Source: Liolophura sinensis
Taxonomy: Eukaryota; Mollusca; Polyplacophora; Chitonida; Chitonidae
Assembly (NCBI RefSeq): GCF_032854445.1
Contig: NC_088302.1
Location: 1,488,001-1,552,000 of the forward strand
Direction: 5' to 3'
Length of the DNA: 64,000 nucleotides
Each line of letters opens with the position of its first letter. Position 1 is the first letter of the stretch. The notes beneath the pieces were generated by a model, which searched no databases, was not told where the DNA came from, and saw only the letters and a program-made list of their open reading frames with translations. Positions 4,422 through 60,200 of this stretch are shown here, one piece after another. The position numbers were made by a program, and so were the translations under genes.

Positions 4422-7400
4422 ATGGAACCAACTGTCAAAAATGGTGAGGTTAAGGCAGCTAACAACCAAGCCGACAAAAAGGTTGGAGAAGAAGAGGAAG
4501 AACTTGAAAGGTAACCACATGTACCCTAGCTGCTCTATGGCTCTACAGGTACATGTACCCTACCTGCTCTTTGGCTCTACTGTATGGCTCTACACATACC
4601 CTAGCTGTTCTATGGCTCTACATGTACCTGTGGCTGTACATGTATCCTACCTGCTATATGGCTCTACATGTACCCTACCTGCTCTATGGCTCTACTCTAT
4701 ACCCTACCTGCTCTATGGCTCTAAATGTACCCTACTTACTCTATGGCTCTACATATACCTCACCTGCTCTCTGGCTCTATGGCTGTAATTGTACCCTAGC
4801 TGCTCTATGGCTGTACATTTACCTTACCTGCTCTATGGCTATACATGTACCTTACCTGCTCTATAGCTATACATGTACCCTACCTGCTCTATGGCTCTAC
4901 ATGTACCCTACTTGCTCTATGGCTCTACATGTACCCTACCTGCTCTATGGCTCTACATGTACCCTACCTGCTCTATGGCTCTACATGTACCCTACTTACT
5001 CTATGGCTCTACATGTACCTCACCTGCTCTCTGGCTCTACATGTACCCTACCTGCTCTATGGCTCTGTATGTACCTTACCTGCTCTATGACTGTACATGT
5101 ACCCTACCTGCTGTATGGCTCTAAATGTACCCCACCTGCTCTATGGCTATAATTGTACCCTAGCTGCTCTATGGCTGTACATGTACCCTACCTGCTCTAT
5201 GGCTGTACATGTACCCTACCTGCTCTATGGCTCTAAATGTACCCTACCTGCTCTATGGCTCTACATGTACCCTACTTACTCTATGGCTCTGCATATACCT
5301 CACCTGCTCTCTGGCTCTAAATGTACCCTACCTGCTCTATGGCTCTACATGTACCCTAACTGCTGTATGGCTGTACATGTACCCTACCTGCTCTATGGCT
5401 CTAAATGTACCCCACCTGCTCTGTGGCTGTAATTGTACCCTAGCTGCTCTATGGCTGTACATGTACCCTACCTGCTCTATGGCTGTACATGTACCATACC
5501 TGCTCTCTGGCTATACATGTACCTTACCTGCTCTGTGGCTCTACATATACCTTACCTGCTCTATGGCTCTGTATGTACCCTACCTGCTCTATGGCTCTAC
5601 TCTATAGCCTACCTGCTCTGTGGCTCTAAATGTACCCCACCTGCTCTATGGCTCTACATGTACCCTAGCTGCTCTATGGCTCTGTATGTACCCTACCTGC
5701 TGTATGGCTCTACATGTACCCTACCTTCTCTATGGCACGACATGTACCCTACCTGCTCTATGGCTCTACATGTACCCTACCTGCTCTATGGCTCTACTCT
5801 ATAGCCTACCTGCTCTGTGGCTCCACATGTACCTTACCTGCTCTATGGCTCTACATGTACCCTACCTGCTCTATGGCTCTACATGTACCCTACCTGCTCT
5901 ATGGCTCTACATGTACCCTACCTTCTCTATGGCATGACATGTACTGTACCTGCTCAAGGGCTCTATGGCTGTACTTTGTGACTCTGTATGTACCTTACCT
6001 GCTCTATGGCTCTGTATGTACCCTACCTGCTCTATGGCTCTGCATGTACCCTACCTTCTCTATGGCACAACATATACCGTACCTGCTCAATGGCTCTATG
6101 GCTGTACTTTATGACTGTATGTACCTTACCTGCTCTATGGCTGTACATATACCCTACCTGCTCTATGGCTCTGCATGTACCCTGCCTTCTCTATGGCACG
6201 ACATGTACCGTACCTGCTCAATGGCTCTATGGCTGTACTTTATGACTGTATGTACCTTACCTGCTCTATGGCTGTACAAGTACCTTACCTGCTCTATGGC
6301 TCTGCATGTACCTTACCTGCTCTATGGCTCTACATTACAGCTCTCTGATGCTGTCTACTGTATGAAATCTGACAGATGTTTCAAGTAATCCATAGCATCA
6401 CTAATATCAGTGGCTCGTTAATAAGTTCTCACTTTTTTCTGTGTGCATCACATGATAGGTTAGCCATGGAGGAGCTGATAAAGGAAGCGAAGAGAGGAGC
6501 AGAAAGGGCCCGAGATATGGGGGCAACTGGATGGTAAGACACTCAGGCAGGGGGTATTCATGTAATGATTAATGGAAAGGTTTGAAATTGGGACAGTTGA
6601 ATTATTGGTATTGTAATGTCTTTTACTTTCATTTATGAAAATTGTTTTTTACTGTTTTATTTATTGATGAGGATTGTTAAACTAGGATTGAGAAATTTGT
6701 ACAGTTAGTTTTGTTACATGAACATGTAAAGCTTTCATCTATTAAACATTGAAATTTAATTCATATCAGCAGTTTTGACATTAAAGTCAAAGAAAACACT
6801 AACATGAAGTTTGTCAGACAAAAGACCATTTAACAATGTCCATAAAATAGACTGATTTCTTTGTACTGTTTTTCATGCTAGTAAAGTGCACTTGAAACTC
6901 GGAATTCTATGGTGGCCTTTGCTGACCATATTTGGACCAGTGAGACTAAATTAGGTTTGGCCACTTAACACATAGGCTTTCAGATTTCATCAGTCAGGAT
7001 ACATGTACACTGTACCTGTAGATCTATAACTGCATCCGCTCAGTGGGACATTGAAACAAACCATTTCAAGCAAAAATGTGGAAGTAGTGCCACTGAGACT
7101 CTGTGTCAATACAGACCATCATAGAATCTAATGTGTTAAGACCATTTCACTCTGCTGGAAAAATTCTAAAAAAACAGATTAAACTATTTTACTGGACACT
7201 GTTTACTGGTTAAACATTTTAGCGATTTTCTTGCCATTAACCTGCATCAAGCTTTAGGAATATAGTGGTGTGCACTACTTACGCTTTGACAAGCTGAAGG
7301 AAATAGCATGTTTACAAGGTAAAGGCTCAATGACCTTGGAACAGTAAGTCAGCGTATGTGAGAGCAGTTCATCCACAAGGTAGCACATGTTTGATGAAAG

Positions 7401-11475: not shown

Positions 11476-11488
11476 ATGATGATGGGCC

Positions 11489-13860: not shown

Positions 13861-15690
13861 ATGTCGGCAGGGAACGATTTATGGCCGTCATTGTCGCCCA
13901 GTTACATATTGGCATCTGCTTTTGTCCTGTTCATCCTACTTCTACTTCTACTTCATTGCTTGAAGAAAAAGTTGTTCTCATTTTTTATGTATTGGATAAC
14001 AGGTATCATAAATAGAAAGGTAGGAAGTGAGAAAGAGGAACTGTTTGCACCACTTCTGGAACTCAAACAGTCTTTGAAAGATGAAGGAAAGAGGTCTGCA
14101 CTAACAGTCGTGGAAATTGGTGTCGGTACCGGGGCCAACTTTAAATACTACCCCAGCGGAACAAATATTGTTGCTGTGGACCCAAACCCAAACTTTGAGT
14201 CCTATCTGAAGAGCAACATCTCAAAGTTTTCCCATGTGAAGCTCAAGGAGTTCATCATCGCTCATGGCGAAGACTTGTCCGCAATTCCCGATAGTTTTTG
14301 TGACGCCGTTGTGTGCACCTTTGTTCTATGTTCTGTAGAAGACATTGATATGGTGCTTAAAGAAGTGAAACGAGTTTTAAAACCAGTGAGTAATAATACG
14401 TTTAACAAATTTAGCAGAATATCGAAGTTGGGAAGTTGTGAAGACAACATTGTTAGCTGTGTTCAGATGATACTTTCCACGTGCGTCTTGACGCCTTTTT
14501 TTCCCCACGGTGACGTACTTTTTACTGATTTGTCATTGGTTAAAAAATAAATGGGGAGACGTTAATCTTGCAAAAATTTAGCAAAACGGACTCTTTTTTT
14601 TTTTTTTTTAATTTTTTATGCTGAACCCAATCATCTGATACCCAGCCTTGTGCTTTCCCTGGACACTTGATGGGATGTACATACTAACATACTGCTTTTA
14701 TGGTCCTTATGAACACCTCTTGATTCGAACTTCCATCAGACTTCCACTGGGTCCGTAATCTGTCTTCTATACCACTAGGCCATTTGATTTGTTGTCACAC
14801 AATGTATTTCTTAGACTTGTTTAAGGGAGATGAATACGCTATGTGTCATATGCGTTTGTCATGTGCACTACTGTGGGGAAAATACCTCCCACATGTACCG
14901 AAACAGTACAAAGCTGTGAACTCTTGTTGTTCTTTCCTTTATTACGTCACAGTAATCTGTATATATATTTTTGCTGATAAAACATATATGAAGTACACAG
15001 GCATAGCCCCAATAGACACCAACTCCTTTTCTTAAACAGGCCCAATGTTGTTGGGGTCTCTACGCTAACAGTGTTTATTTCATATTCAAGAACGTTCCAG
15101 GCCGATTGTCTTTGTTATAGAAGTCTTGTTTAAGTAAAAGACACCAGCCTAAAGGCTTGCTTTGTGCACTGAAGTGTGAATGGGATATTTTGTAAACCAA
15201 CCATGGCCTTACTATCAGCTAATCAGTAACAGCTCTTTTTGCCTTTAATCAAGTGTGACAAGGGTGGGTTAGCTGACCCTTTGTATTAATTTTAATATTA
15301 CCTGGGCTCCAGTCTCCAATCAGACTCTTCCAGGAACTCCTGGGACTCACTTTTTTCAGTTTAACAGCAAATAGATACTGCTGTTCAGTATATAGATGTA
15401 TACTTGTATGTGTTATAATTTTTATGCAGGTATGTTTTTCCTGTACACAGGGTGGGATGTTCTTTTACCTGGACCATGTTGCAGGCCGTCATTCAGGTCA
15501 CAGTCGCCTCCACTACCTGTTGAGTGGGATTCAGAGATTTTTCAGACATGACCAGAAGGGCCACAAGCACGGGGAACCCTGGTATAACATCGAATGTGCA
15601 GGATTTGCTACACTGGAGTATCGCAGAATTACTTTGTCTACGTGGATTTTCCCACTGAGAAATCTCCTGGCAGGGACGGCCACCAAGTGA
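13861..15690 (+). CDS. METTL7: METTL7/TMT1 thiol methyltransferase, copy A, 2 exons, 254 aa
   Basis: Exons 13861-14385 and 15451-15690, phase-0 intron (AAACCA|gtgagt ... tgtacacag|GGTGGG). This family (human METTL7A/B, now TMT1A/B) uses S-adenosylmethionine to methylate thiols and sits on ER and lipid-droplet membranes. Seen: an N-terminal hydrophobic anchor at about residues 16-38 (ILASAFVLFILLLLLLHC); SAM motif I VVEIGVGTGANFKYYP; the acidic loop VDPNPNFESYL; CTFVLCSVEDIDMVLKEV; RVLKP|GGMFFYLDHV across the splice; and a C-terminal WYNIECAGFATLEYRR. Length fits the family (about 244 aa). The stretch after LDHVAG (RHSGHSRLHYLLSG) departs from the usual STW pattern, so substrate contacts may differ. 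ATG 13861 is preferred over 13747 because it puts the anchor near the N-terminus. The stop codon lies in the first unit of a minisatellite. Confidence 0.9.
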
Positions 15691-16103
15691 ACAGTGTCGT
15701 CAGGCTTTCCATCAAGTGATCAGTGTCATCAGCCTTTCCATCAAGTGATCAGTGTCATCAGCCTTTCCATCAAGTGATCAGTGTCATCAGTCTTTCCATC
15801 AAGTGATCAGTGTCATCAGTCTTTCCATCAAATGATCAGTGTCATCAGTCTTTCCATCAAGTGATCAGTGTCATCAGCCTTTCCATCAAGTGATCAGTTT
15901 CATCAGCCTTTACATCAAGTGATCAGTGTCGTCAACCTTTCTATTAAATGATCAGTGTCATCAGCCTTTCCATCAAATGATCAGTGTCAACATCGTTTCC
16001 ATCAAATGATCAGTGTCATCAGCCTTTCCATCAAGTGATAAGCATCATCAGCCTTTCCATCAAATGATCAGTGTCATCAGTCTTTCCATCAAGTGATTGG
16101 TGT
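15679..16103 (+). repeat. 29-bp minisatellite seeded at the stop codon of METTL7 copy A
   Basis: About 14 copies of GATCAGTGTCATCAGCCTTT plus CCATCAAGT. The last codons of the gene (ACC AAG TGA ACAGTG) are the first unit: each later unit repeats ATCAAGTGATCAGTG with the TGA in place. The array therefore starts inside the coding exon and makes up the proximal 3' UTR. Confidence 0.9.
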
Positions 16104-18818
16104 CATTATCATGGTTATATAGCGTGAGAGGTTTTTTTTAAGTATTGTACTGACCAAAATGCTCACATTGTTCAACGGTGCTTAAATATTATCCTAAATA
16201 ACCCGACATTTCATCCATAACTAATTTTTGTGTTTTGATTTTTGTTTAGAAGGTGGGATCATATCCTACTTAAATTGTTTTTCACCACTGTGAATAATAT
16301 TTTATGATGTTCTTAGTTCATTTACACTGCACTGCCTTATATACATGTCCATACATGCAGGGTAGCTGCAGATAACTTTCACTGCTACCTGTCCAAGTGC
16401 ATGTTTTGTTTTTTGTTTGTACATTGTTACAAGACATTATATGGAGTATATCATTATATGTGATGGTGTAACTATCTGTACATAGTCTGAATTGTCACTG
16501 GATAAACCAGCATAATGAAAAGAGAGGAAAACTCTCAGGTCCTTCATGCTTGAAACAAAAGCCAGTCTCCTGCAGCGCCAGTAGCAACAAGCTTTAATTT
16601 CTGGGGCAATTTTGAGTAAAGAAAATACAAGGCTCCAAACATAGCTAAAAAGCAAAAACTATGCCTCTGTGCAGTATTGCGAACCTATGGTTAGATGAGT
16701 GGTCCATTACCCAATAACTAGGCAGGACTTGGGAATGCCGAAACGGTGCTGAAACAAGACACTACTGTAAAGTGTACGCCAACTCAGTTTGCAGCTTCTG
16801 GAAAATCGTTTGTCTCTTTTAGTTTGATTTCAGGGCCTGGTTGTTCTAAAATGTTCTCAGACTTAATACCAGGTTTAACTTTTAGCCTTTTAAGTCTTTT
16901 TTTTTTTTGTGTGTGTGTGTGTATTTAGTTCAAAATAACTTTGTAATAGTATATTAGATGTGAACTAAGTCTGTTGCTGTGACACTTTCACTTTGGACAA
17001 GTGTGTAATTTGACTTGATAACAGTATTAGCTAATGGGCCCTGAAGACTGAGAGAGAACATCGTATGGTTGAAGGGCTCATACCAAGACGATGTAGAAGA
17101 TACATCCTAGAAAGAGGACGAGATGAAAGGATTCAAGGCTATAAAACACTACTTCCAGACGCTGCAGAGCTCAGGGTCCAACCAGCCAAACATGGCCTAT
17201 CTCTGCTGTGTATGGCATACTCAGTGGAATAAAAAAGACAAAACCTGTAAAAAATCATGAATATGATGGACAGAGAGCTTAAATAATTTCCCATAATTTG
17301 AGTTATGTTTTGTTAAATATTGTACTTGGCATACTAACATTGATAACCACATATTCTCAACCTAGGATATTTTTCTCTTCACTATCACTGGTGTTCAGTT
17401 TCATTCTCCACAGCTATTATGGACAGGCGTACTGTATAAATGTTCATAGTTTTCTTAATAATTGTACGGTAATACATTTTAGTCTACATTTAAAAGAGCC
17501 ATATTTCTTATCAAAGAAATTCCTTGTCTTGATCAGAATTGAATTATAAAAAATTGTTTTGTTTTTTTTCTTTTTTCTTTTACATATAGAAATTGTTTTG
17601 ACTGCTGATATATTCTGGTAGATTTTAGTAACTTCAGTTTCAAGAAATATTGGTATTTTTAGTTTTCAGATATTCATTATTATCAGATATACTTGATACT
17701 TTTATACGTCCATTGTTTTATTGTATGTGAGACGTCCATGTCAGTTTAATTGTTTACAATAAATTTTACCATTCTGGCACCAAATGTCTTGTGTATTAAT
17801 AGAATTTAGTTTAGTTATATATTTTAGAACAGTCAGTAGGGTGTATAGGAAGTGACAAGGCACGGTGTAATGGCAATATACATGGGCTAAATTAACAACA
17901 TATTTTAAGTCATGTGAGCATCCCATTATAGAGTAGAGTCTCTATTCAAGATTAGTGAGAACAAACTGTGTGCTACAATTTGGAAACTGTTGCTGACCGC
18001 CCGTCCATCCCTCCATCTGTCCGTTTGTCTGTCCTTCCATCCATCCATCCATCTATCCATATGACCATCTGTCAACCCAGTGTGAAAGGGCTTTCAAGTG
18101 AGTTAACCTAAGGCCCAAGCTGTCAGCCTGAAAATTTAAGTAGCCTGCAGTCATGACGACTGCAGACTCGGGCGAAGGAATGAAAGCACCGTAATGGAGA
18201 GTACTAAGCTATTCCCCCATTATCACTAAGTTTATCGACCATTTATTTCTGGGGCTTGTTTTAAGAAGCAGTCAAACTCAAAATGTGCTCAAAATGAGTT
18301 AACTTCGATGACAACACAGTGTGAACCGATATTGGGTCACCACAGTAAATTGGCTCGATGGACTTGTGACGATTTTAATATGTGTGCTTTTAGTAAGAAA
18401 ACAACTTAACTTACAGCCTACCACGGAAGTATCAAGTTTGAAAAGCGACATCCGTTCATATAAGTAACTCATGCGTTTAAATTCGAAGCACAGATATGCG
18501 TTTGAGTCGATCAACCGATACAGACTCTGACCTGAATGAAGGACCACCATGTGCAGAGACATTCGGTTGATAGGAGATACATTTGTCCATTTTCTTTCGG
18601 GTAACACAAGCAATACGGGCTAAAGATTGCCGGACGAGCGAATGTTGTAAGTAAAGAAACAGCAGTCTATAGACCGGTCAATTGTTCGGGCTGCCCGAGC
18701 TGTAAGGGAGATAACGGATGTTTGGTTATCGCGTCTGAAAAAAAGTGTGTGGATCGATTAGGCTTTATTGGTGAAGAAACTGCCTTGAGAGAGTTCAGAA
18801 GTCTTACAGAAAAACAGA
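16104..18818. other. Intergenic stretch between METTL7 copies A and B
   Basis: AT-rich and without a supported exon. It contains a GT run at about 16908-16922 and a CCAT-type microsatellite at about 18003-18072. Part of the left side is probably 3' UTR of copy A. Confidence 0.45.
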
Positions 18819-20026: not shown

Positions 20027-20560
20027 TGATATATGCTGAGCGGAAATGCCACGAGGTGATGACATATACTGACTGGAAATGCCACGAGGTGATGACATGC
20101 TGACTGGAAATGCCACGAGGTGATGACATATGCTGACTGGAAATGCCCCGAGGTGATGACATATGCTGACTGCAAAGGCCACGAGGTGATGACATATGCT
20201 GACCGGAAATGCCACGAGGTGATGACATATGCTGACTGGAAATGCCACGAGGTGATGACATACGCTGACTAGAAATGCCACGAGGTGATGACATATGCTG
20301 ACTGGAAATGCCCCGAGGTGATGACATGCAGATTGGAAATGTCACGAGGTGATGACATGCAGATTGGAAATGCCACGAGGTGATGACATATGCTGACTGC
20401 AAAGGCCATGAGGTGATGACATATGCTGACTGCAAAGGCCACGAGGTGATGACATGCAGATTGGAAATGCCACGAGGTGATAACATATGCTGACTAGAAA
20501 GGCCACGAGGTGATGACATGCAGATTGGAAATGCCACGGGGTGAGGAAATGCCACAAGGT
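20010..20560 (+). repeat. 33-bp minisatellite seeded at the stop codon of METTL7 copy B
   Basis: About 17 copies of a roughly 33-base unit (ATGCTGACTGGAAATGCCAC then GAGGTGATGACAT), with some shorter units (GCAGATTGGAAATGCC). The unit is the end of the coding exon: ATG CTG ACC GGA AAT GCC ATG AGG TGA, that is MLTGNAMR-stop, repeated with its stop codon. The array therefore grew from the last codons, in the same way as at copy A but from a different sequence. Confidence 0.9.
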
Positions 20561-22045: not shown

Positions 22046-22049
22046 CAGG

Positions 22050-22790: not shown

Positions 22791-22792
22791 GT

Positions 22793-27605: not shown

Positions 27606-27808
27606 AACTCCAGGAGAAGCCTGAGTTCAAGTCCAGCTCATGCTGGCTTCCTCTCCGGCCTTACATGGGAAGGTCTTCCAGCAACCTATGGATGGTTGTG
27701 GGCTTCCCCTGGGCTCTACGCGCTTTCCTCCCACCATAATGCTGGCTGTCAGCGTATAAGGGAAATATTTTTGAGTATGGCGCAACACCAATCAAATAAA
27801 TAAATAAA
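27606..27808 (+). mobile_element. tRNA-derived SINE, main subfamily, head truncated
   Basis: GAGTTCAAGTCCAGCTCATGC (B-box end), body, and tail ending CAACACCAATCAAATAAATAAATAAA. Confidence 0.85.
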
Positions 27809-45341: not shown

Positions 45342-45406
<65 letters not shown>

Positions 45407-48400
45407 GTATAAACAGGCAGAAAACTGAGGGGAAATGAACAGGTCAAGATAAATACTGTCACTTTGCTACAATAAATGTAATTGTATCATAATTCTTACA
45501 TTTAAAACACTACAGGTTGAATATTTTTTGTTTTCTCTGAAGGACAATTACCACAATACAAATGCACAATACACTGAATATGCAGGTCGGGGCCTCCGTG
45601 GCTCAGTTGGTTAGCGCGCTAGCGCAGTGTAATGACCCAGGAGCCTCTCACCAATGCGGTCGCTGTTAGTTCAAGTCCAGCTCATGCTGGCTCCCTCTCC
45701 GGCCGTAAGTGGGAAGGTCTGTCAGCAACCTGCGGATGGTCGTGGGTTTCCCCCGGGCTGTGCCCGATTTCCACCCACCATAATGCTGGTCGCTGTCGTA
45801 TAAGTGAAATATTCTTGAGTACGGCGTAAAACACCAATCAAAAAAAAAAAAAAAAAAAAAAATATGCAGGTCAACATTTATGTTTGAATCCCAAGCACAG
45901 CTTTACATACTGTAGTACAGATGGCACTCACTCACAATTTAGTTCTTTGATTAATGCCATACTCCAGAAAATTCCACTCACTCAGAAGATTTTTGGCGTC
46001 TGGCTGAGACATGGCATGATCTACAGCCATCTCCAGAGCCATCTCTAATGCCTCCCCCTTTACTTGGTTCCTCTGACGTGATTCAACAGCTTTCTTCTTC
46101 TTAGAGCTCCCAAATGATTTTGTGAGAATGTCATTCTAATAAAAATCAAAAGACTACAATCTTGGAAAGGGTAGGCAGTGTTAATTAGTATCAGCTGTAC
46201 CTAATTTCTAAACTTATGATAACTTGAATTTCATCATTCATGATAACTAGGATTTCATCATTCATGATAACTTGAATTTCATCATTCATGATAACTTGGA
46301 TTTCATCATTCATGATAACTTGTATTTCATCATTCATGATAACTTGGATTTCATCATTCATGATAACTTGGATTTCATCATTCATGATAACTTGGATTTC
46401 ATCATTCGTGATAGCTTGGATTTTGTCATTCATGACAACTTGGATTTTGTCATTCATGGTAACTTGGATTTCGTCATTCATGATAACTTGGATTTCGTCA
46501 TCCATGATAACTTGGATTTCGTCATTCATGATAACTTGCATTTTGTCATTCATGATAACTTGCATTTTGTCATTCATGATAACTTGGATTTCGTCATTCA
46601 AGATAACTTGGATTTCATCATTCATGATAACATGGATTTCATCATTCATGATAACTTGGATTTTGTCATTCATGATAACTTGCATTTCGTCATTCATAAT
46701 AATGTGGATTTTGTAATTCATGATACAACGAATTTCATCTTTCATGATAACATGGATTCTGTCATTCATGATAACTTGGATTCTGTCATTCATGGTAATG
46801 TGAATTTTGTCATTCATGGTAACTTGGATTTCGTCATCCATGATAACTTGGATTTCGTCATCCATGATAACTTGGATTTCGTCATTCATGATAACTTGCA
46901 TTTTGTCATTCATGATAACTTGCATTTTGTCATTCATGATAACTTGGATTTCGTCATTCAAGATAACTTGGATTTCATCATTCATGATAACATGGATTTC
47001 GTCATTCATGATAACTTGCATTTTGTCATTCATGCTAACTTGTATTTCGTCATTCAAGATAACTTGGATTTCATCATTCATGATAACATGGATTTCGTCA
47101 TTCATGATAACTTGCATTTTGTCATTCATGATAACTTGGATTTCGTCATTCATGATAACTTGCATTTTGTCATTCATGCTAACTTGGATTTCGTCATTCA
47201 TGATAACTTGCATTTTGTCATTCATGCTAACTTGGATTTCGTCATTCATGACAACTTGGATTTCGTCATTCATGATAACATGGATTTCGCCATTCATGAT
47301 AACTTGCATTTTGTCATTCATGATAACTTGGATTTCGTCATTCATGATAACTTGGATTTCGTCATTCATGATAACTTGGATTTTGTCACTCATGGTAATG
47401 TGGATTTCGTCATTCATGATAACTTGGATTTCGTCATTCATGACAACTTGCATTTCGTCATTCAAGTTAACTTGGATTTCGTCATTCATGATAACGTGGA
47501 TTTTGTCATTGATGATCAGGTGGATTTTGAAATTCATGATAACTTGGATTTTGTCATTCATGATCAGGTGGATTTTGAAATTCATGATAACTTGGATTTT
47601 GTCATTGATAACTTGGACTTTGCCATTCATGATATCTTGGATTTTGTAATTCATGATAACTTGGATTTCGTCATTCATGATAACTTGCATTTTGTCATTC
47701 ATGATAACTTACATTTTGTCATTCAAGATGACTTGCATTTGTCATTCATTAGTTCCACTTTTTGCTGATCCTCAGAATGGGAAAAACATGCCGTATAAGT
47801 TCTGCATATTCCCCGACACAACATTATACTTATTAATCTGTCCTGAAACTTAGAGTTCTCACAATTTTTCAAAACACTGGTGGCAGAGGTAGAAGAATTG
47901 GGGTACATGGAGTTAGAAATTTGACAGTTTACAGCAGACTCCATTCTGATCTACAAGGCACCTGGGTTAATGTATAAAAACCTGAACAAGCTGGTTTGTT
48001 GATCACCTCACCTTCTCTCTGAAGGACAAATTCAAGTTGGCTGGAATTTCTGGGATGCTAGACTCTTCCTCCCCTAAAAGAGAAAAGATCTCTGGTCTGT
48101 TTGTCTGTTCTGCTTATATAGTCATATGGTAGAATGAAGGAATTTTCTTATTTTGTTTCTTTTTTCAACAATATCTTCTTTATTTCACACAAGAAAACAA
48201 GCTGTAACATGGCCAGTAAGATTCAAGCTGTCAATTAACAGAGAAATTAGCATACAATTTACCCATGACTGAAGTATACTGTGGCTGTAGTTATGAGTTT
48301 GTTACTACAACTGGTATGCGAACATTGCCCCAATATGACTGCCCTGCCATCTACACAGTTAGTCATGTTAGATGTTAGTCAAATTCAAACAAGCTCGGAA

Positions 48401-51400
48401 TTCACTTTTCCAAAATATCCAAAACTGTTGAGAATGTGGCTTTTGCTTCAGCATTCTATGAAATTACGCGATTCTGACTATTAAAACAGGGCATGGATAA
48501 AGAGTTCACTCAGCATTGGATAACCAGTGACGTTCAACACTCCCCTGCTATAACCAGTGATGTCCCACACGCACCTGTTATAACCAGTGACGTCCCACAC
48601 TCACCTGTTATAACCAGTGATGTCCCACACTCACCTGTTATAACCAGTGATATCTCACACTCACCTGTTATAACCAGTGACGTCCCACACTCACCTGTTA
48701 TAACCAGTGACGTCCCACACTCACCTGTTATAACCAGAGATGTCCCACACTCACCTGTTATAACCAGTGATATCTCACACTCACCTGTTATAACCAGTGA
48801 CGTCCCACACACACCTGTTATAACCAGTGACGTCCCACACTCACCTGCTATAACCAGTGATGTCCAACACTCACCTGTTATAACCAGTGATGTCCAACAC
48901 TCATCTGTTATAACCAGTGATGTCCCACACTCACCTGTTATAACCAGTGACGTCCCACACTCACCTGTTATAACCAGTGACGTCCAACACTCACCTGCTA
49001 TAACGAGTGATGTCCCACACTCACCTGTTACAACCAGTGACGTCCCACACTCACCTGTTACAACCAGTGACGTCCCACACTCACCTGTTATAACCAGTGA
49101 CAACCAACACTCACCTGCCATAACCAGTGACAACCAACACTCACCTGCTATAACCAGTGATATTCCCTCACCTGCTCACACTCACCTGCTATGACTGGCT
49201 CCATGTTTATCATATGAGCATCCAATAATCGCATTTTCCCAGTCTCCTTATTTAGTACACCGAGGTAATACCTGATGGAAAACAGAAAATCCAGATGGAC
49301 TTCCAACTAAGCAAAAGATTCAAATCACTCAGCAGAAAAATATATATAAGGTTTTTATAAGGCAAGCTATCCAAACATTCCAGAAAGAAACACCTAAGAA
49401 AATGGTTCCTATACCTTTGAAGAGAGCCACTGATCGACTAGATAAGCAATGTAAATCTGAATAAATACATTTTGACAATTTCAATATGTTGACTTTAATG
49501 CAGTCACGTCATATGTAATTAAGATGACGACTTAATAAAAGTAACACTGAAATATTGTCAAACTGGATTCATTTTGAGTAACTTTGCTCTCATATTATTC
49601 TGAAATAACTTTTCCATTAAAAGCACAGATGATACAAATCTGTCTCACACATACATTAACAAATAATCATAAATACTGTGGAAGATGGAAAGCAGGTGTC
49701 ACTTACTGACAGAGACCGGCAGATCTGCAGGCTGTAGGGCCGAAGTTCTGACCTCTGTACGTCATCTTGCCAGTCTTGGCCACCTAATCATCAACATAAA
49801 TAGGGAAATTTACCCACGTTTTTAATATTCAGGTGATATATAATATATGTAGACAGATACAGTAGCCGTTGCACTATCATCAATGCATACATGTATGTAC
49901 AGTACCTAATATGACTTATATTGATCAATAAATGCTATTAAAAAGAGGAGACCGGTTGAAGGCCTACAGCAATTTAATGTTGAGATTGTACTTGAAAGAT
50001 TTTAACATGAGTCAATTATGTGTACAGTATTTCAATACTTTCACAAACTGTCTACAGGCTAAAGAACAATCTACTTGTAAACACCCTCAAAGAAACAAGT
50101 TATGTGAGCTAACAGTTAACTCACCACAGTTTTGTGATTTTTCTTCACTGGATCGTCTTTGTCAGAGCTCTCAATAGCTTCAAATTTGATATCCTTTTTC
50201 GCCTCTTCTTTGATTTTTCCATTGGGAAAGTTAACTGGAGTAAGAAATAGAAAGGGGCTCATTCAGAACACCATAGGCCCATGAAGCACTTCATTCACTA
50301 TATTTAACAACCACTGTCTGGTCAATTTGTTAAGAGCATACTGGACCGGTGATACAAAGGACCAGTAATACAATGGACCAGTGACAGAATACACTATGTA
50401 CAGTAATACTGGGGTAAAGAAGCGAAAATTTTGTAAGAGTTCGTAATTTAGGATTTCACCAGGGGTGGGAGGAAAGCCTAGACAAGTTCTGGAGACAGTG
50501 GTTTGACAGTGCCAAAAAAGGGAGACAATTCATGATTGAAAATAAACTGAAGTTTATCCCAACACAAGCAACCTAAAAGAAACTAGAGGCTGGAATATAC
50601 CAGGTTAAAACATCTCCCTTTCATTGCAAATACATATACAAGGTTACATATCCATACCTGTGTAACATCAGTGAACCCGAAGAACAATACTAGTATCCCA
50701 ATCAAAATAACATTTAACAAAGAACTTATGTCCTATCCATCACAATCACAATATCTGCACTCTATGTCTAAGTTTCTAATACAAAATAAACTTTGAAAAA
50801 TTAACAGCACATACAGACAACAACATAACTAAGCGCACAAAAGAAAACAAATGGAATAGTACATAAACTACTCCTCTTTTCAAATCCTTTAATCCTCATA
50901 CACTGTATGCTATTGATCACTTCAAACAAAAAATATATTTTTTTCAGAGATATTTGGCATGAACGGCAGAATAAAGACAACCAAGTCAGAGAACAGAGTT
51001 TTAGCCACCCAAGTTAAAAATAAAAAGCCAACAGTGGTACTCTCTCTTCCCTGTGCAGAACCTGATACAGAACCTGATGAAGGGGACAAATCATGTAGCA
51101 CAAGGATTAATGGAAGAAAATCAGTTTTCCTGAATCTTCTGAACTTGCAGTTTGTAAAATTTTAAATTTCAAAATACTTTTGGCTGGATTTATTCTGTTT
51201 GTCATACTGAAATACAGGGGCCATACTTCACTAATTTGCGTTATATGCTTATGACTATTTTTACTTTCATGAATGTGCAGTCAGAGTCTACACCTTTTGA
51301 CACTGGCAACTGGCACACTTGACAGTGTTGGTCTCTGGTTTTTAAAACACACAGATTTTTCAGAAAATCTCTGTCTTGTTTTGTTATATTTTCTTTCTAT

Positions 51401-52734
51401 GAGGTGTGCTTATAAATATTTCACTAAATTCACTAAAATGTATAGATCTGACAGTGGTCAGTGTTGATATGGAGGACACTAGATTGCCTGGGCTGAGCTA
51501 TCAAATAGTATTTTAGCACCTAATTACCTGATGGTTGTTAGCCAAAAAAATCAGTTGTGAATTCATACTGGTACTCAGTAAGGTCTAGTTCAGCCTCTGC
51601 GTACAAGTAAATATATGCCATTTTTTGACTGCATTTTTGGGCTAGCTGATCAGTGCTTTTAAGCTAATTATTTGCATACTAGTACCCTCTTTTGGAAGTT
51701 CTGAATGATAACAACTTAGGGCATACTCTGTGCGGTTAGTTAGAGAGCTACTTAAGTGTCAAGACTTGTTCATCCTAAGAGCAAGGTTAAATGATAAGGA
51801 TGAAGACAGACAGACTTACTTTCTTACACTTAAAAAATGCTCTGTATTACAGTTGTTAGTTTGAGAGGATAAAACGGAAACAACAGTTTTCTGTTGTCTC
51901 CAAGTTTGCCTTTGTGTGACGTCATGCAAGAACACTTGACGTCACTGTCACTGACGTACAGCCGCAAATGACATCATACTCTCAAACGGGCATGGCGTCA
52001 TTCCAGCATAGCTACCTTACTCCATATCTGCCTGATTCATTGTCACATGAGGAATATTTTAACGTTACATCAGCTACATTTTACGGAAACTGCTGAAGAT
52101 TTTGTTTTTGAGGACTCTCCACTTACAGATGTTAAATAAAGTTATTCATCATAAATTTATTTGAAGCGTGGTGCTAGCTATATTCTATATTGTATCCTTC
52201 ATATCAGTTTAATATTTCCGCCTGGCCTCTCTTGGGACTGAAGCAGCACTTCAACTAACTTACATGTATGTACCATCGTCACAAATGTCACTGGGTGCAA
52301 TGCTAGACCACCGTACCTTTCCATATTGCTGCTACTGGGCTCCATATCTAAGGGAAGCACTAAAGGATACACACAGTCCCGTACTTTGTATCGGTATTGC
52401 AAATCCTGACAGACAAAGACAGATTTAGTTCAACAAGTCAAACGATACACTGCTATTTGTCGTCCATAGACGGGCACTGTAACAGACATATTCAGAAGCC
52501 AAGAACTAGCCTGTGATCTGCATTTTTTTCTCCTACTGGCTCACTTTCATATGAATTTGCATAAAGTATATTAGTCATATCAACCTCGACACTTACGAAG
52601 GATATGTGTCACTTTCATATGAATTTGCATAAAATATATTAGTCATATCAACCTCGACACTTACGAAGGAATACTTTTTCAGCATCTTTTGCACCTAGAG
52701 ACGACGTGTCTAGCGTCACTTCCATCTTACCCAT
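31214..52734 (-). CDS. POLR1E: POLR1E (RPA49/PAF53), RNA polymerase I subunit, 12 exons, 416 aa
   Basis: Exons in transcript order: 52734-52665, 50234-50125, 49783-49707, 49271-49186, 48073-48012, 46135-45982, 44857-44768, 38901-38805, 37153-37014, 34737-34647, 32106-31984, 31364-31214. All junctions are GT-AG and all phases agree (1251 bases with stop). The family subunit pairs with RPA34 on RNA polymerase I in the nucleolus and aids rDNA initiation and elongation. Residues 1-120 match the TFIIF-like dimerisation part (KVFLLNFPNGKI, MTYRGQNFG, YYLGVLNKETGKMRLLDAHM). A linker follows with LIPPYNKDA and the Lys-rich SSKKKKAVESRQRN. Residues 217-390 match the tandem winged-helix part (SPRERDEL, LLYLQNLIKLYQ, LPDFVKKSVLNKFTL, DKVISYILVLCLIIDEFQVDL). 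The end is basic (KTKKTRR), as in human KRRKIT. Start: M1 opens MGKMEV; M4 is the alternative. Introns 4, 7, 8, 9 and 10 hold arrays at or near donors; intron 10 also holds a Tc1 element. Confidence 0.93.
32246..32341 (+). repeat. AT-rich short tandem repeat
   Basis: About five degenerate units of roughly 20 bases built on AAATAATAATGGTTTAGT. It lies directly against the left end of the Tc1 element, so the TA target probably came from this repeat. Confidence 0.75.
32344..33847 (+). mobile_element. Tc1-like DNA transposon, 1504 bp, in POLR1E intron 10
   Basis: Terminal inverted repeats of about 27-30 bases: left AACTCTGTCAAAAAGGAAAC then GCAACCCC, and right the near-perfect reverse complement (GGGGTTGCGTTTCTTTTCTG then ACAGAGTT). 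TA duplications flank it (32342-32343 and 33848-33849), the standard Tc1/mariner target. One transposase frame fills the middle. It points opposite to POLR1E. The well-kept ends and nearly open frame indicate a recent insertion. Confidence 0.94.
32673..33671 (+). pseudogene. Tc1-type DD34E transposase, two premature stops
   Basis: A single frame from ATG 32673 to a stop at 33669-33671 (332 residues) encodes a Tc1 transposase. It has an N-terminal helix-turn-helix (MPRLSAADRNIAIGHLQAG, FGTIARHLNVHKTTISQL), the GRPR-type linker DRPRSGRPR, a second DNA-binding helix set (VSAQTIRNRLKEA), then the catalytic part: D in WFSDESRF, D in FQQDNARPHTA, E in SPDLNPIEHLWD. The last two are separated by 34 residues, the Tc1 pattern. 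In-frame stops at 32790-32792 (TGA after ISQL) and 33585-33587 (TAA after WRAIP) interrupt it; both are single-base changes from CGA/CAA-type codons. This copy is unlikely to make full transposase. Confidence 0.9.
33850..34475. other. POLR1E intron 10, unique part
   Basis: Intronic; nothing further recognised. Confidence 0.4.
34476..34646 (-). repeat. About 32-bp tandem copies of the POLR1E exon 10 end and donor
   Basis: On the minus strand the true exon ends AAGATGACAAG|gtatgtagagtcattt. Five degraded copies follow: AAAGATAACAAGgtacgtgaa, AAAAGATAAGgtatgtgaa, AAAGATGACAAGgtacctgg, AACATGACAAGgtatgtgg, TATGACAAGggatgtggagt. Each unit holds about 12 exon bases, the donor and the intron start. 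Confidence 0.85.
34895..35487 (+). repeat. 51-bp minisatellite in POLR1E intron 9
   Basis: About 11.5 copies of CTGACAAACCTCCTGAGTGT ... GGTGAGTAAACCACCGACC ... CCATCCAT. As 51 is 17 codons, it stays open on both strands (LTNLLSVVSKPPTF on plus, GGLLTTLRRFVRW on minus). It lies near the acceptor end of the intron. Each unit carries a donor-like GTG|gtgagtaaa on the strand opposite the gene. Confidence 0.92.
35625..35780 (-). mobile_element. tRNA-derived SINE, 3' half
   Basis: Tail and body in reverse (TTTATTTATTTCATTGATTG ... CGACCATCCGCAGGTTG); ends in the body, so 5' truncated. Confidence 0.82.
35781..36096. other. POLR1E intron 9, unique part
   Basis: Intronic; no feature recognised. Confidence 0.4.
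36097..37130 (-). repeat. Eight 131-bp tandem copies of POLR1E exon 9 with its donor
   Basis: Copies of the exon 9 3' part end at 36097, 36228, 36359, 36490, 36621, 36752, 36883 and 37014, exactly 131 bases apart. Each still encodes LREEARLNKATLLLYLQNL and KAAELRSKG with few changes and keeps the donor AAAG|gtaagtc. Only the copy ending at 37014 has the full exon start and a real acceptor (ctgatcctccaccaccag), so it is taken as exon 9. Reading on past its donor meets a TGA 13 codons later, so the other copies are intronic unless spliced separately. The spacer between copies is only about 36 bases (gtaagtcacacaaacataag...). Confidence 0.92.
37197..37243 (-). mobile_element. SINE tail fragment fused to a minisatellite
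   Basis: TTTATTTATTTATTTGATTG then GTGTTTTATGCTTTACTCAA is the reversed SINE tail. It stops abruptly where the 33-bp array begins. Confidence 0.8.
37244..38575 (+). repeat. 33-bp minisatellite in POLR1E intron 8
   Basis: About 40 copies of AACCTCAACCACAGGAAGTG plus CCTTTCTCACAGC. As 33 is 11 codons, long forward frames stay open (TSTTGSAFLTA; NLNHRKCLSHS). Units at the right end drift toward CTCACCCAAAGGAGGTGCC. It is inside a confirmed intron, with no start context or family match. Confidence 0.93.
38590..38770 (+). repeat. 61-bp triplication next to POLR1E exon 8 donor
   Basis: Three nearly identical 61-base units (GTAGCTTCATATGGTAGGGG ... CAGCAACAAAACCT) start at 38590, 38651 and 38712. 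The last ends about 35 bases from the exon 8 donor at 38804. Confidence 0.9.
39215..41295 (+). repeat. 50-bp minisatellite in POLR1E intron 7
   Basis: About 41 copies of CAGTACAAGGGACGCTACGT, CCTGCTTTGTCTTTATGACC, ACATGTACGT. The period is a strict 50 bases for nearly the whole length. Variation is concentrated at a few positions (GACGCT, GACTCT, GAAGCT or GCCGCT; CAG or CGG before TAC). Confidence 0.95.
41363..41648 (-). mobile_element. tRNA-derived SINE, full length, between two arrays
   Basis: Reverse orientation with complete tail, body and tRNA-like head (GGGGGCCTCCGTGGCTCAGT reversed). It has an internal duplication of CCGCATTGGT-GAGAGGCTCC. It sits between the 50-bp and 32-bp arrays in intron 7. 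Confidence 0.88.
41655..44762 (+). repeat. 32-bp minisatellite ending at POLR1E exon 7 donor
   Basis: About 97 copies of GAGGTAAGACATAACTAGAC plus GAGGACTGGGAT (3.1 kb). Its right end lies six bases from the exon 7 donor: on the gene strand GATGACA|gtgagttgtctagttatgtc runs straight into the repeat. A block of about 543 bases (near 42709-43250) recurs at 43252-43793 with the same marker variants, including a shortened GACAAGGACATGATGAGG unit, showing recent block duplication. Confidence 0.95.
44980..45590. other. POLR1E intron 6: short repeats
   Basis: A 32-base direct duplication (CGCCCAAAATGTGCCATTTT...) lies at about 45128-45190, and an (AT)n microsatellite at 45345-45396. Nothing else recognised. 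Confidence 0.7.
45592..45862 (+). mobile_element. tRNA-derived SINE, full-length reference copy
   Basis: The head GGGGCCTCCGTGGCTCAGTT is followed by GGTTAGCGCGCTAGCG, which together contain a clear pol III A box (TGGCTCAGTTGG). The B box is GTTCAAGTCC. The body follows (CTCCCTCTCCGGCCGTAAG, GGATGGTCGTGGGTTTC, CACCATAATGCTGG), then the tail (TGAAATATTCTTGAGTACGG, AAACACCAATCA) and a poly-A run. It is the most complete copy here and serves as reference. It may belong to the molluscan V-SINE-type families, but that assignment is from memory. Confidence 0.9.
46203..47755 (-). repeat. 24-bp minisatellite in POLR1E intron 5, open on both strands
   Basis: About 64 copies of GATAACTTGGATTTCGTCATTCAT (plus strand, joined from 20 + 4 bases). 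As 24 is eight codons, the minus strand reads (MNDEIQVI)n for about 500 codons and the plus strand (IHDNLDFV)n for a similar length. The array is inside a supported intron, about 65 bases from the exon 6 acceptor. No exon-end seed was found, so it is taken as non-coding. Confidence 0.94.
48500..49185 (-). repeat. 30-bp minisatellite copying POLR1E exon 4 end and donor
   Basis: On the gene strand the exon ends GTCATAGCAG|gtgagtgtgag. About 22 copies of the unit follow directly, each reading GTTATAGCAGgtgagtgttg or GTTATAACAGgtgagtgtgg plus a short spacer with GACGTCACTG. Nearly every unit keeps a strong 5' splice site (CAG|gtgagt). The copies nearest the exon keep the exon-like AGCAG; farther ones have AACAG. 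The period of 30 keeps frames open on both strands. Confidence 0.95.
50235..52541. other. POLR1E intron 1
   Basis: No array, SINE or other exon was supported here. The frames at 50959-51165 and 52199-52402 lack recognisable content. Confidence 0.45.
52542..52674 (-). repeat. 68-bp duplication of the POLR1E exon 1 end and donor
   Basis: Two copies, 52542-52609 and 52610-52674, nearly identical. The true exon 1 donor is CCTTC|gtaagtgtcgagg at 52665. The second, intronic copy repeats TCCTTCgtaagtgtcgaggttg, with its donor at the base before 52597. Confidence 0.92.
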
Positions 52735-54261: not shown

Positions 54262-57200
54262 ATGGCTGGTGATGAAGAAAATAACAAATTTGAGGAAGAA
54301 TTATTGGATTTAAAAGAGAACTGCAAGGTACGCATGTTTAACTGATTATTAATAACTGTGGCAATCATAAATTTTCATTGTAAAAGTGATTTTGTTTCAG
54401 TTCTTCTTGCACCATTATTAGACAAGGGCATGTGGCATTTTTTAAATTTATTTGTTAATGACAGTCTTTTCCCTTGAATCCCTTTATTAGAAGTACAGGC
54501 ATGTATTAAATTGCTTACAATACAATACAATATTTCATTAATTCCACCTGAAGGCAGTTGCGATGTATACAATTGTGTCCAAAGCTTCCATCGTTTGTCA
54601 AAGGCTAGTTCTTCCATAAAAATGACACCCTTTCAATTTCCCTGTTCTGTCTAAGAACATGGTTAAAAGCTGAAGCTTTTTGTATTTGTTTTCTAAATTT
54701 ACATGGATAAATATAGGTTTATCTGTGCCATCCATTCCCAAAAGAACTATATGTTTCGTTGTAATTAGGTAATTCACTGGGCCATGTGAGAAAGTTTTGA
54801 ACCACTCACTTATATCATGCAAGAATTCTTTACCTCTGCTGTATTAAAAATGTAAATGTTCTAGTGTTTCCATCTTTCTTTGGTTTAGATTGCACAGAGC
54901 TGATCCTTTCACATGTACCCCATTTTTTTCTAATTTTTGGGATGTCTGGTCTTTTTAGCCAATATACATGTAACTGTAGTGGGAATATTTACTTTCTTTC
55001 TTCTCACATGGTTATACCATCTAATGAACAACATACTTATGTCTTTAATATTCTGCTTTCAACACTATTGATATCTGTCTGGAAAATTAGAAGAATTAGG
55101 GTATCTTAAAAAGGAAACTATTTGCATTTTAAATGCAGTTCATTAGTCAAATCTGGAACCACCAAGGTGTGGCATGTATTATAGCAGTATAATTGCTGAG
55201 GCTGAGGGTAAGACTCATGATTAAAAAAATGATTAACTTAAATGTGAAATTATCTTTACAGCAATGCAGTGTAAAATTCCATTCAAAGGAATATACTGTC
55301 TCTGATATAGCTCAAAACACCATTGAATGAATGAATGATTATGGCTTAACACTACATCGGCAATATTTCAGCCATATCGTGGCGAAAAACACCATTGAAG
55401 TAAGTACCTGATTGCTAAGGATTTTATTCTTGCTGTGCAGCTTTTCACTTCATTAGTATAATGACCTGTTTTTGTTTGCTTTTAGATCTTATTTGAGGCT
55501 GATCCATCGCAGGTACTGGTAACAGCTTTTTTACTCAACTATTAAAAAAATAAAACCTAAACCAATGAAGATAAAAAGATAATAAATATTCTGACAGACA
55601 GAAAGATGAAAACCGACTTAAGGCTTACTTGGTGATATCTTTGCAATGCCTGTCAGAAAATTCGTGCAAGGTTGTGCTTTCTCTATCCGCTTGTTTGATT
55701 CAGCTTGTTACATTTAGTAGTCCTTTACTGAATAATGTTGAATGTATGGCGTCACTTCATTGCTGTGTTCTTACACAGGCTCATAGTGATGCATCTCTAC
55801 GTAGATTTCTCAGGGCTTTTGGGACTGCAGATTTAGCCTGCAAAAATTTATTAAAGAGTAACAAATGGCGGCAGGAGTTTGGCGTGGAGTCTTTGTCACC
55901 TGAAGACAAAGACATTCAAGAAGAGCTCATTTCTAGGAAAATCACAATCCTGAGGCACAGAGACTCCCAAGGCAGGTATGTAACATGATTGTCAAGTCTC
56001 GCTGCACACTGAAAAATACATCTGAAGTTCACAGACTTTAGCATAGTAAATATATTTATTACTTCAAATTTTGTTCTAAAAATATGCATTTTTAGAAGCA
56101 AATAAATCCAGTAGCATTACGTGCTGTTTATTGAATAATTTTAATGTTTTAGTCAACTCCTATTCACTGAAAAATTAGTGTGTCTCAAACACAAATGGTA
56201 AAATTTATTCTTAACATTGATTATACAAGAAAAAAAAAAGGGGAAGAAAAAAAAAAGATATAAAAACATGTGTCTTCACATATATAGCTGCAGTGTTTAT
56301 GGAATACCATTGGTTATTATTAATAATGTTTTGGTTGTTAGAGGGAACAAATGGTATATCCTGGGATATTTCACCTAGTACCCATGATAAATAAACTTCT
56401 TCTCACCTGTAAACAATACTGGTAATGGTGCTCTAAATTATGCTGAATGATGTGAAACCAATAGCATTTCAACACTCTCATGTACCTATGACCAGAACAA
56501 GAGCAATTCGTTGACCAGGCTTTTTTTTTTTTTTTTTTTGGTATTTCCCATTTTGCTTGGTCCCTTCCTAGTGGAACAGTATTAGTAAAGACTGTATGTT
56601 AATGTCTATGTCCTCATTCTGGTTACAGACCTATTGTGTATGTGGCGGTCCGGAAACATAATGTGTATGAGAGAGATATAGACAAATTTACCAGGTTTAT
56701 AGTGTACATACTGGTGAGTGCTGATGAACTTAATACATTTGTGTATAAGAGAGATACAGACAAATTAACCAAGTTCCAAGTGTACTTACTGATGAGTGCA
56801 GATGAACTTACATCTGTGTATGAGAGAGATGTATACAAATTTACCAGGTTTACAGTGTACATACTGGTGAGTGCACATGAACTTAACACATTTGTGTATG
56901 AGGGAGATATAGACATATTTACCAAGTTTAAAGTGTACTTACTGGTGAGTGCGGATGAATTTACATTGTGTATGAGAGAGATACAGACAGATTTAGAGAG
57001 TTTATAGGTTTCTTACTGCTGAGTGCAGATGAACTTAGTGCATCTGTGTATGAGGGAGATATAGACAAATTTACCATGTTTAAAGTGTACTTACTGGTGA
57101 GTGCAGATAAACTTACACCTGTGTATGAGAGAGATATAGACAAATTTATTAGGTTTAAAGTGTATTTCTGGTGAGTGCTGATGAACTTACATTGTGTATG

Positions 57201-60200
57201 AGGGAGATATAGACAGATTTAGAGAGTTTATAGGGTTCTTACTGCTGAGTGCAGATGAACTTAATGCATCTGTGTATGAGAAAGATATAGACAAATTTAC
57301 TGTGTATAGTGTACATACTGATGAGTGCAAATGAACTTACATCTGTGTATGAGATAGATGTAGACAAATATACCAGGTTTAAAGTGTATTTCTGGTGAGT
57401 GCTGATGAACTTACATTGTGTATGAGGGAGATATAGACAGATTTAGAGAGTTTATAGGGTTCTTACTGCTGAGTGCAGATGAACTTAATGCATCTGTGTA
57501 TGAGAGAGATATAGACAAATTTACTGTGTATAGTGTACATACTGATGAGTGCAAATGAACTTACATCTGTGTATGAGATAGATGTAGACAAATATACCAG
57601 GTTTAAAGTGTACTTACTGGTGAGTGCAGATGAACTTACATCTGTGTATGAGGGAGGTATAGACAAATTTATGAAGTTTATATTGTTCTTACTGCTGAGT
57701 GCAGATGAACTTAATACATTTGTGTATGAGAGAGATATAGGGAAATTTACATATAGTGTACATACTGATTAGTGCAAATGAACTTACATCTGTGTATAAG
57801 AGAGATACAGACAAATTTATGAAGTTTATGGTATGCATACTGGTGAGTGCAGATGAACTTACAAGTCAATGGCAACAGCTTGTTATATACATGACTGATT
57901 CATTACACTTAATATCTTTTGCTAGCTTCCTCTGTAGTAGTATGTGTGAAGATCTGCCAGCAACATGTGGATGGGCATGGAGAGCCTGGTTTCCTCCCAT
58001 CATAATGCTTGCCACTGTCGTATAAGTGAGATATTCTTGAGTCTGGCATAAATTAATTAAACTTAGTACAGTTTTAAAGTAATATGGGTGCAAATTGTTA
58101 TATGGGGCAGTTATTGAGAATAAGTTGAAAGGCATGCATGAAAGCCAAATTCATCTCGAAGTGTCATGTATGGCCAGGCCTGATTGCACATGTGTATACT
58201 GACTCTAGAATTATGATACTGTCAAGTTTCTGTAGGTACAAATTAAAGATGCACATCACGAGTCAGGTTATCAGTTTGGTGTAGAACGTGTATGGAGTGT
58301 GGGTGTGCAGTGAAGTTAAGCAGTTCATCTACAGTTTGTTGTGATTTGTAAGGTGTATCACGTTATTGGCAATTTTTGTTTAGGAATGTAGTAATCAGTG
58401 AAAGATCTCCTCTCTTCCAGGAAAATGCCTGCAAAAAATGTCATGAGGATGTCATTGACAACTTGTGTATTGTTTTTGACATGAAAGGCTTCAGCCTAAG
58501 TTGTATGGATTACCAGTTTGTGAAGAACCTGATCTGGCTGCTAAGTAAGCACTACCCTGAGAGACTCGGGGTCTGTCTCATCATCAACTCTCCTATGATG
58601 TTCTCAGGCTGCTGGGCTGCCATCAGACCGTGGTAAGTTCCTGCATTTACCACATGTACGTGTGAAAGTAGGTCTTGTCTCTCTAAGCATAAAAGCTGTT
58701 TGAAAGTAATGTTTTTTTAAGATCATGGTTGTACATTGGAACAACCTGTGGATGGTTGTGGGTTTCCCCCGGGCTGTGCCTGGTGTCCTCCCGCCATATT
58801 GCTGGCTTCCTCTCCGGCCATACATGGGAAGGTCTTCCAACAACCTGTGGATGGTTGTGGGTTTTCCCCGAGGCTGTGCCTGGTGTCCTCCCGCCATATT
58901 GCTGGCTTCGTCTCCGGCCATACATGGGAAGGTCTTCCAACAAACTGTGGATGGTTGTGGTTTTCCCCCAGGCTGTGCGTGGTGTCCTCCCACCATATTG
59001 CTGGCTTCGTCTCCGGCCATACATGGGAAGGTCTTCCAACAACCTGTGGATGGTTGTGGTTTTCCCCCAGGCTGTGCCTGGTGTCCTCCCGCCATATTGC
59101 TGGCTTCCTCTCCGGCCATACATGGGAAGGTCTTCCACAACCTGTGGATGGTTGTGGGTTTCCCCCCGGGCTGTGCCTGATGTCCTCCCGCCATATTGCT
59201 GGCTTCTTCTCCGGCCATACATGGAAAGGTCTTCCACAACCTGTGGATGGTTGTGGGTTTCCCCCGGGCTGTGCCTGGTGTCCTCCCAACATAAAGCTGG
59301 TTGTCTGTCGTATAAGTGAAATATTCTTGAGTACTGCATAAAACACCAATCAAATAAATATTCAGCTTGACTTTAAATTTGAATTTTAAGCCACATGTGG
59401 TGGCATTATGGCCACAGACCCCCATTAATTTTCAACAGGCGACATTGTTAATGTTTAGCGCTTTAGCTCAGTCCCAAACATTCCGTGGCCACTAAGCTTT
59501 GGTGCATACCTGGACCAGTCTGTGAGAAATAAGCCATAAAAATCTTGACTTTCGTTGGTCAAAATCTGGACCTTTCTATGCCGGCAGCTGGGAGGGGTGC
59601 CTAGCAGCGCCAAGGGGACGTCACCCACAGCCTCATCAGCACCTGTCTCCTGGTGTCCTCTCGCCCGGAATTTTAAACTTTTATCATTAAAACTCATACC
59701 TGCCCAAAGCTTAGACATTTTACATCATTTTGATACCAAGCATGCACTTGTTCACCAAAAACGGCAGCCTGGCAGCAAAAAAGAATTACATTCGTCCCTC
59801 CCGAAAAACGGAAGTTGTAGCGGGGGTCTGTGTCCTTATGTGCCTCTGGTATATCATAGGTCTGCCTGAGTTTTCTCCCTTACCATGAGTTGTCTCCACT
59901 TGGTCTGCTGACCTACTGACTAGTTTGGGATTACATTTCTAATGTACTTATTGTTTCTTTATTTATTTGATTAGTGTTTTATGCCAAACTCAAGAATATT
60001 TCACTGATGTGTTGGCGGCCAGCATTATAATGTAGTCATTGATATTCTTAGTATGATTTATTTGATTGGTGTTTTATGCCGTACTCAAGAGCAGTAGGCT
60101 TGGAGACCAGGCTTCTACTACTGTGATGATAAATGGGCATGATATCAAAAACTGCAAGGAACTTCTTGGTGCTAGACATGTGAACCCAATTCTTCGACAT

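Follow-up and report, generated by a model that had tools for sequence, protein, structure and literature searches.

Minisatellites over the 3' ends of coding segments in one window of a chiton genome

Why should minisatellites of unlike sequence lie repeatedly over the place at which a coding segment ends? The question is raised by a 64-kb stretch of the genome of the chiton Liolophura sinensis (NCBI RefSeq assembly GCF_032854445.1, contig NC_088302.1, positions 1,488,001 to 1,552,000 of the forward strand), hereafter the window, in which tandem arrays overlap exon ends of the POLR1E gene, of a CRAL-TRIO gene, and of two METTL7-like genes, METTL7_1 and METTL7_2. The original prediction, made from the letters alone, described such arrays as repeatedly seeded at 5' splice sites (donors). 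Our results revealed the same architecture at stop codons, and what these sites share appears to be the 3' end of a coding segment, rather than the donor as such. All counts come from this single window, in one sequence, and the exon models behind them are sequence-based, with exon ends fixed by splicing exons into clean reading frames.

The boundaries compared were those of 23 coding segments, comprising 18 donors and five stop codons at the 3' ends, and 19 acceptors and four starts at the 5' ends. For each, a 24-mer centered on the edge (12 nt on each side) was taken, and a second copy with at most five edits was sought within 600 nt. Near copies were present for 5 of the 18 donors (POLR1E exons 1, 4, 9, and 10, and the CRAL-TRIO exon ending at 56713) and for two of the five stop codons (METTL7_1 and METTL7_2). 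Within the same distance, none was found for the 19 acceptors or the four starts, in agreement with the original prediction, which had seen no comparable set at acceptors. The contrast between 3' and 5' ends is thus 7 versus 0 of 23 (Fisher, p = 0.009), or p = 0.0015 when two arrays that begin just past a donor are counted. With a probe of 6 exonic and 18 outer nt, the identical seven 3' ends pass and no 5' end does, while 18 exonic and 6 outer nt leave four of the seven. Raw repeat-finder edges give four spanned donors, 6/23 3' ends, and 0/23 5' ends. As controls for the 12 + 12 test, 400 non-coding positions outside arrays yield about 5 passes, and 300 within exons yield 10. The extra copies are confined to the non-coding side of the real boundary, and the merged array that lies nearest upstream of any exon is 80 nt away. 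The seven arrays are listed here, with junctions written as exon/intron:

52541..52670, minus: 68-bp duplication of 1.9 copies, spanning the donor of POLR1E exon 1 (exon 52734-52665, TTC/gtaagt)
48520..49195, minus: 30-bp array adjoining the donor of POLR1E exon 4 and spanning it via a diverged seed copy (exon 49271-49186, CAG/gtgagt)
36089..37125, minus: 131-bp array of about eight copies at POLR1E exon 9 (exon 37153-37014, donor AAG/gtaagt)
34466..34658, minus: 32-bp array spanning the donor of POLR1E exon 10 (exon 34737-34647, AAG/gtatgt)
56662..57863, plus: 75-78-bp array of 16 copies at the CRAL-TRIO exon 56629-56713 (donor CTG/gtgagt)
15680..16106, plus: 29-bp array with the METTL7_1 stop codon in its first unit; missed in the original prediction
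19995..20562, plus: 33-bp array with the METTL7_2 stop codon in its first unit; likewise missed

The anatomy of these arrays, their one-sidedness in the window, and the unlikeness of their units from site to site are direct observations. Specifically, the unit at POLR1E exon 9 consists of the final 112 exonic nt, the donor, and the start of the intron, and that of the CRAL-TRIO array consists of the final 52 exonic nt and the donor; 12 exonic nt are copied at POLR1E exon 10, and, with the stop included, 11 at METTL7_1 and 32 at METTL7_2. Two donor cases are soft. At POLR1E exon 1, 6 exonic and 56 intronic nt were copied in what is a mere 1.9-copy duplication, and POLR1E exon 4 is the weakest case, as the repeat finder places the edge at 49160, such that the array stops 25 nt inside the intron, where gapless periodicity starts; the seed copy there differs by 5 edits in 24, and its exonic part of about 10 nt was set by hand. 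The predicted inclusion of exon end plus donor in the units at these five sites is therefore borne out, with those two reservations. The METTL7_1 and METTL7_2 arrays lie at homologous stop codons but have unlike units (29 versus 33 bp) in different registers and, most simply, arose separately; METTL7_2 is frameshifted, so that, of the two, only METTL7_1 combines a stop-codon array with an intact last exon. In the CRAL-TRIO array, the first few units (56603-57004, plus strand) remain open in frame with the exon. Unit sequences and periods differ among the boundary arrays generally, as the original prediction had noted, and the spread of a single mobile repeat to these sites was rejected on that ground.

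Three further arrays lie close to donors of POLR1E and of a POLR1D-like gene, beginning within the intron:

4517..6335, plus: 28-bp array, beginning 6 nt beyond the donor of POLR1D exon 1 (exon 4422-4510)
41675..44760, minus: 32-bp array, beginning 7 nt beyond the donor of POLR1E exon 7 (exon 44857-44768)
38585..38769, minus: 61-bp non-spanning array, beginning 35 nt beyond the donor of POLR1E exon 8 (exon 38901-38805)

The first two had been predicted to start within six bases of the donor, which is correct at POLR1D exon 1 after hand extension (the raw start, in a 46-bp row, is 4549, or 38 nt past the donor) and off by one base at POLR1E exon 7.

How much of this would chance supply? The tandem repeat finder returned 39 rows, merged by hand into 25 arrays, with two edges (4517 at POLR1D and 49195 at POLR1E exon 4) extended by hand. 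Together, the arrays cover 18,200 bp, or 28% of the window, and make up 49% of intron DNA (14,845 of 30,163 bp in 17 complete introns, with an AT repeat excluded); the length of these 17 introns, which belong to the POLR1E, POLR1D, METTL7, and CRAL-TRIO genes, is largely set by minisatellites. In a seed-level null, each array was collapsed to one unit, and 24 units (25 minus the AT repeat) were placed randomly. Against 0.39-0.47 spanned 3' ends expected, seven were observed (six by raw edges); seven was never reached in six settings of 100,000 trials each, while at least five was reached in at most 9 of 100,000. A null restricted to introns (17 arrays, the AT repeat being left out together with an array whose CRAL-TRIO intron is incomplete) gave 0.67 donor-spanning arrays, versus 5/17 observed (P = 0.0006; P = 0.005 with four spanning), and 0.90 spanning or starting within 10 nt of a donor, versus 7/17 observed (P = 4e-5); zero acceptors were spanned, for which P(0) is 0.4-0.5. 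The predicted repeated seeding at donors is supported, although its specificity to donors is weakened, given that METTL7 stops were also seeded.

We propose, as the probable explanation, that these are "mirage"-type boundary minisatellites, in which a tandem duplication over a coding 3' end has grown and been kept where its first copy preserves the message. Under this proposal, tandem duplication would first affect 29-131 bp straddling a coding 3' end, either the close of an exon with its donor or the final codons with their stop; through slippage or unequal exchange, the extra copies would then expand on the non-coding side to form an array. The duplication would survive since reading from 5' to 3' meets the correct signal first, such that the first donor would still close the exon and the first stop would still end the protein; an additional acceptor or start that preceded the real one would be encountered first and would usually ruin the product. 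We infer the duplication route, the use of the first donor, and the survival filter. Because this filter explains the side of the arrays and not their excess, a seeding bias toward exons or their 3' ends must be added, and our preferred guess is a bias toward exons as a whole, which, once trimmed by the filter, would be the source of the excess at 3' ends.

The later copies in the arrays bear on how such genes could be read. Across the five donor arrays, 43 decoy donors score within 3 bits of the real one, and since 40 of them would shift the frame or introduce a stop, and so break the protein, use of the first donor is needed. The exceptions include two of the seven decoys in the CRAL-TRIO array, which would add in-frame sequence without a stop. 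At POLR1E exon 9, seven later donors score equal to the first, giving eight equal donors. The real donor would then be the first copy, as the protein models demand. Selection to keep the decoys is not supported, clearly so only in the CRAL-TRIO array, where the first G of the donor is lost in 8 of 15 later copies and where the interior copies appear clearly free from selection. The GT is retained in most copies of the POLR1E exon 4, 9, and 10 arrays, and, in most arrays, the exonic and intronic parts of the unit are similarly variable.

Boundary tandem repeats are an already published kind of structure, of which the window holds a one-sided form that includes stops; the comparisons that follow draw on excerpts of the reports cited. 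In lancelets (Branchiostoma), mirages are minisatellite-like repeats over exon-intron boundaries, described in the globins BflGb6 and BflGb9 and in Adh3 (PMC3087553) and in PGBD5, with Adh and TnC as cited there (PMC3902484). Splicing is said to be undisturbed in the globins and Adh3, based on reverse transcription-polymerase chain reaction for the globins (PMC3087553). As in those excerpts, the repeats studied herein span the boundary (at 5/18 donors, or four by raw edges), carry AG/GT splice signals in many units, and differ in unit length per locus; the two stop-codon arrays do not literally lie at an exon-intron boundary. Copy number reaches 16 to 21 at two donors here, compared with 3 and 6 in the lancelet globin haplotypes and up to 7 in PGBD5. 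Unlike the lancelet mirages, four or five occur in one gene, and they occupy only the 3' side of coding segments, stop codons included, whereas the lancelet cases described include acceptors. In humans, variable internal tandem repeats lie at exon-intron boundaries of recently duplicated genes, paralogs in segmental duplications, with units of about 30 bp, about four units on average, and 27 intron modifications counted (PMC2812944); half of the variable repeats there are reported in coding sequence, whereas no array here is confined to an exon, and the first donor is required for the protein. As an example of ordinary intronic minisatellites, a TSSK1-like gene of abalone has a 27-bp array in intron 3 that varies between individuals (PMC6905558), which resembles the arrays here in being intronic and of short period, although the excerpt does not report an exon end within that repeat. 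Arrays seeded at stop codons turned up no mention in these excerpts of the boundary-repeat literature, in which no search was aimed at them, and we claim no novelty for them.

A related published model is intron gain by duplication of AGGT (PMC3443670), which, in the excerpt available, likewise starts from a tandem duplication holding splice-site-like sequence. In the window, by contrast, the duplications sit on existing donors, a new intron was not seen, and the donor and acceptor are unalike. The original prediction had suggested that arrays might extend this route, but the two splice sites of an intron resemble each other no more than shuffled donor-acceptor pairs do (mean score 5.18 versus 5.08 across 17 introns, with 38% of 300 shuffles as high), the highest single score being 9, at POLR1D intron 1. 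Intron gain as the origin of these introns is therefore unsupported by this comparison.

A number of observations weigh against the proposed duplication and survival filter. Its data come from one window, in which splice-site use was deduced from protein models, and the P values are optimistic because the window was picked for this pattern. The contrast between 3' and 5' ends becomes marginal without the soft cases (6/23 by raw edges, p = 0.022; 5/22, p = 0.048, when METTL7_2 is also removed), and under the seed null the zero observed at 5' ends compares with about 0.44 expected (P(0) = 0.64 in the plain setting), which leaves depletion there unproven. Per base, near copies occur at 140 of 400 random non-coding positions (35%), such that 7/23 3' ends is ordinary, a resemblance that arises because arrays fill half the introns; the filter alone would leave 3' ends no higher than this intron background. 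The two nulls thus conflict, with 3' ends ordinary and 5' ends empty per base, and 3' ends in excess and 5' ends ordinary per seed. We place our trust in the seed null, since an array that grows gains bases but no seeds and since coding segments sit only at array edges. Further, no array lying wholly inside an exon, of the kind that would show a general exon bias, was found in the window. Some constraint on interior copies may remain, given that the donor core of the exon 9 array shows a variation of 0 versus 0.025 over all columns (in recent copies) and that, in the exon 4 array, exonic columns are half as variable as intronic ones (0.049 versus 0.110). Among published cases, BflGb6 of lancelets is described as an acceptor-side case (PMC3087553), by which the survival filter would not be absolute, and boundary repeats in human paralogs are reported often to change splicing, giving alternative splicing or new introns (PMC2812944).

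These difficulties must be set beside those of the alternatives. The excess of donor-spanning arrays within introns (5/17, or 7/17 with those starting within 10 nt) would fit donor-specific breakage, in which duplications are initiated at 5' splice sites by U1 binding, R-loops, or nicking, and the two stop contexts, CAAGTGATC and GAGGTGATG, are themselves weakly donor-like (p ~0.08 each). Such causes are nevertheless weakened by the two arrays seeded at stops, where an intron is absent, as well as by a motif test and by strand skew. In the motif test, which covered 19 units (7 boundary and 12 others), a sense donor-like motif was not enriched in the 12 other units (p = 0.20) and is unsupported as a general seed of arrays. 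The antisense donor-like motif gave p = 0.0025 in the 12 non-boundary units, three of which carry it (A1, A11, and A16), and p = 0.010 in the seven boundary units; strong antisense motifs are present in units of the arrays 4517-6335, 34897-35487, and 41675-44760. Sense G-skew is inconsistent, being positive in 5/7 boundary units (mean +0.16) and 10/17 others (+0.02), and, with no consistent sense-strand G-richness in boundary units, the R-loop cause raised by the original prediction is weak at best. Overall, we regard donor-specific breakage as quite unlikely.

A general mutational hotspot at coding 3' ends or exons, owing to composition, chromatin, or transcription and with no special role for splicing, would accommodate donors and stops together, including the seven seen against 0.39-0.47 expected, and array DNA is indeed closer in guanine-plus-cytosine (GC) content to coding DNA (44% and 46%) than to other non-coding DNA (38%). 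However, the GC of the 17 other, non-boundary arrays is only marginally high (P = 0.067), far below a 15-fold effect, and the in-exon arrays that a hotspot could produce were not seen in the window, which makes this explanation unlikely in our view. Very unlikely is coincidence, noticed by a pattern-seeking reader in a very repeat-rich region. The extent of the arrays in the window and in its introns, the choice of the window after the fact, and the per-base figure of 35%, which is about 7/23, all speak for it; set against them are the seed null, with P below 1e-5 for seven and at most 9e-5 for five, and the two stop cases, which were found later and independently of the original prediction.

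The genes that carry or adjoin these arrays, and a further METTL7-like gene, are as follows:

31214..52734, minus: POLR1E (RPA49/PAF53) gene, 12 coding exons, 416 amino acids
4422..10138, plus: POLR1D isoform-2-like gene, three coding exons in clean frame
13861..15690, plus: METTL7-like gene 1 (METTL7_1), two coding exons, last exon 15451-15690
19800-20026, plus: last exon of METTL7_2, a frameshifted paralog
23641..25702, plus: METTL7-like gene 3 (METTL7_3), with a stop codon without an array
55779..58632, plus: CRAL-TRIO gene, of which three exons were identified, neither end being complete here

The 12 exons of POLR1E, cut at AG and GT, give 416 clean codons when spliced, and the protein matches RNA_pol_I_A49 in Pfam (1.9e-80) and, over residues 14-384, the RPA49 chain of 7ob9 in the PDB (2.4e-54). 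The three CRAL-TRIO exons join in frame and match PF00650 (2.6e-30), and the METTL7_3 protein matches Methyltransf_11 in Pfam (1.1e-18); the name METTL7 itself is our presumption for these genes. The POLR1D-like protein had no Pfam hit in the profile search, and we take it to be POLR1D from its presumed resemblance to isoform 2. Elsewhere, an 84-bp array in POLR1D intron 2 (7866-8758, plus strand) has long open reading frames on both strands, with about 28 residues per unit, and a transposase-like open frame (32793-33587, plus strand), presumably of the Tc1/mariner type, lies in POLR1E intron 10, antisense to POLR1E. A transfer RNA (tRNA)-short interspersed element (SINE)-like repeat, judged by eye, occurs as single copies near 41640-41390 (minus), 45840-45590 (minus), and 27640-27810, and part of its body makes up a 99-bp array at 58740-59287; we assume a likeness of this repeat (e.g., at 41640-41390, minus) to mollusc SINEs, and Rfam and tRNA scans of the window gave no matches.

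A bolder form of the proposal would make coding 3' ends, whether donors or stops, the birthplaces of minisatellites, the arrays a main source of intron growth, and the first of about 20 near-identical donors the one routinely chosen, which is possible, though we doubt it. If the pattern holds genome-wide, it would join minisatellite birth, intron growth, and the reading of genes in one testable rule, under which duplications over coding ends persist on whichever side leaves the correct signal first. The structure would force the cell to pick one correct splice site among many near-identical copies, and the arrays would thereby offer a natural test of exon definition, as at POLR1E exon 9, where, of eight equal donors, the first alone would keep the protein.

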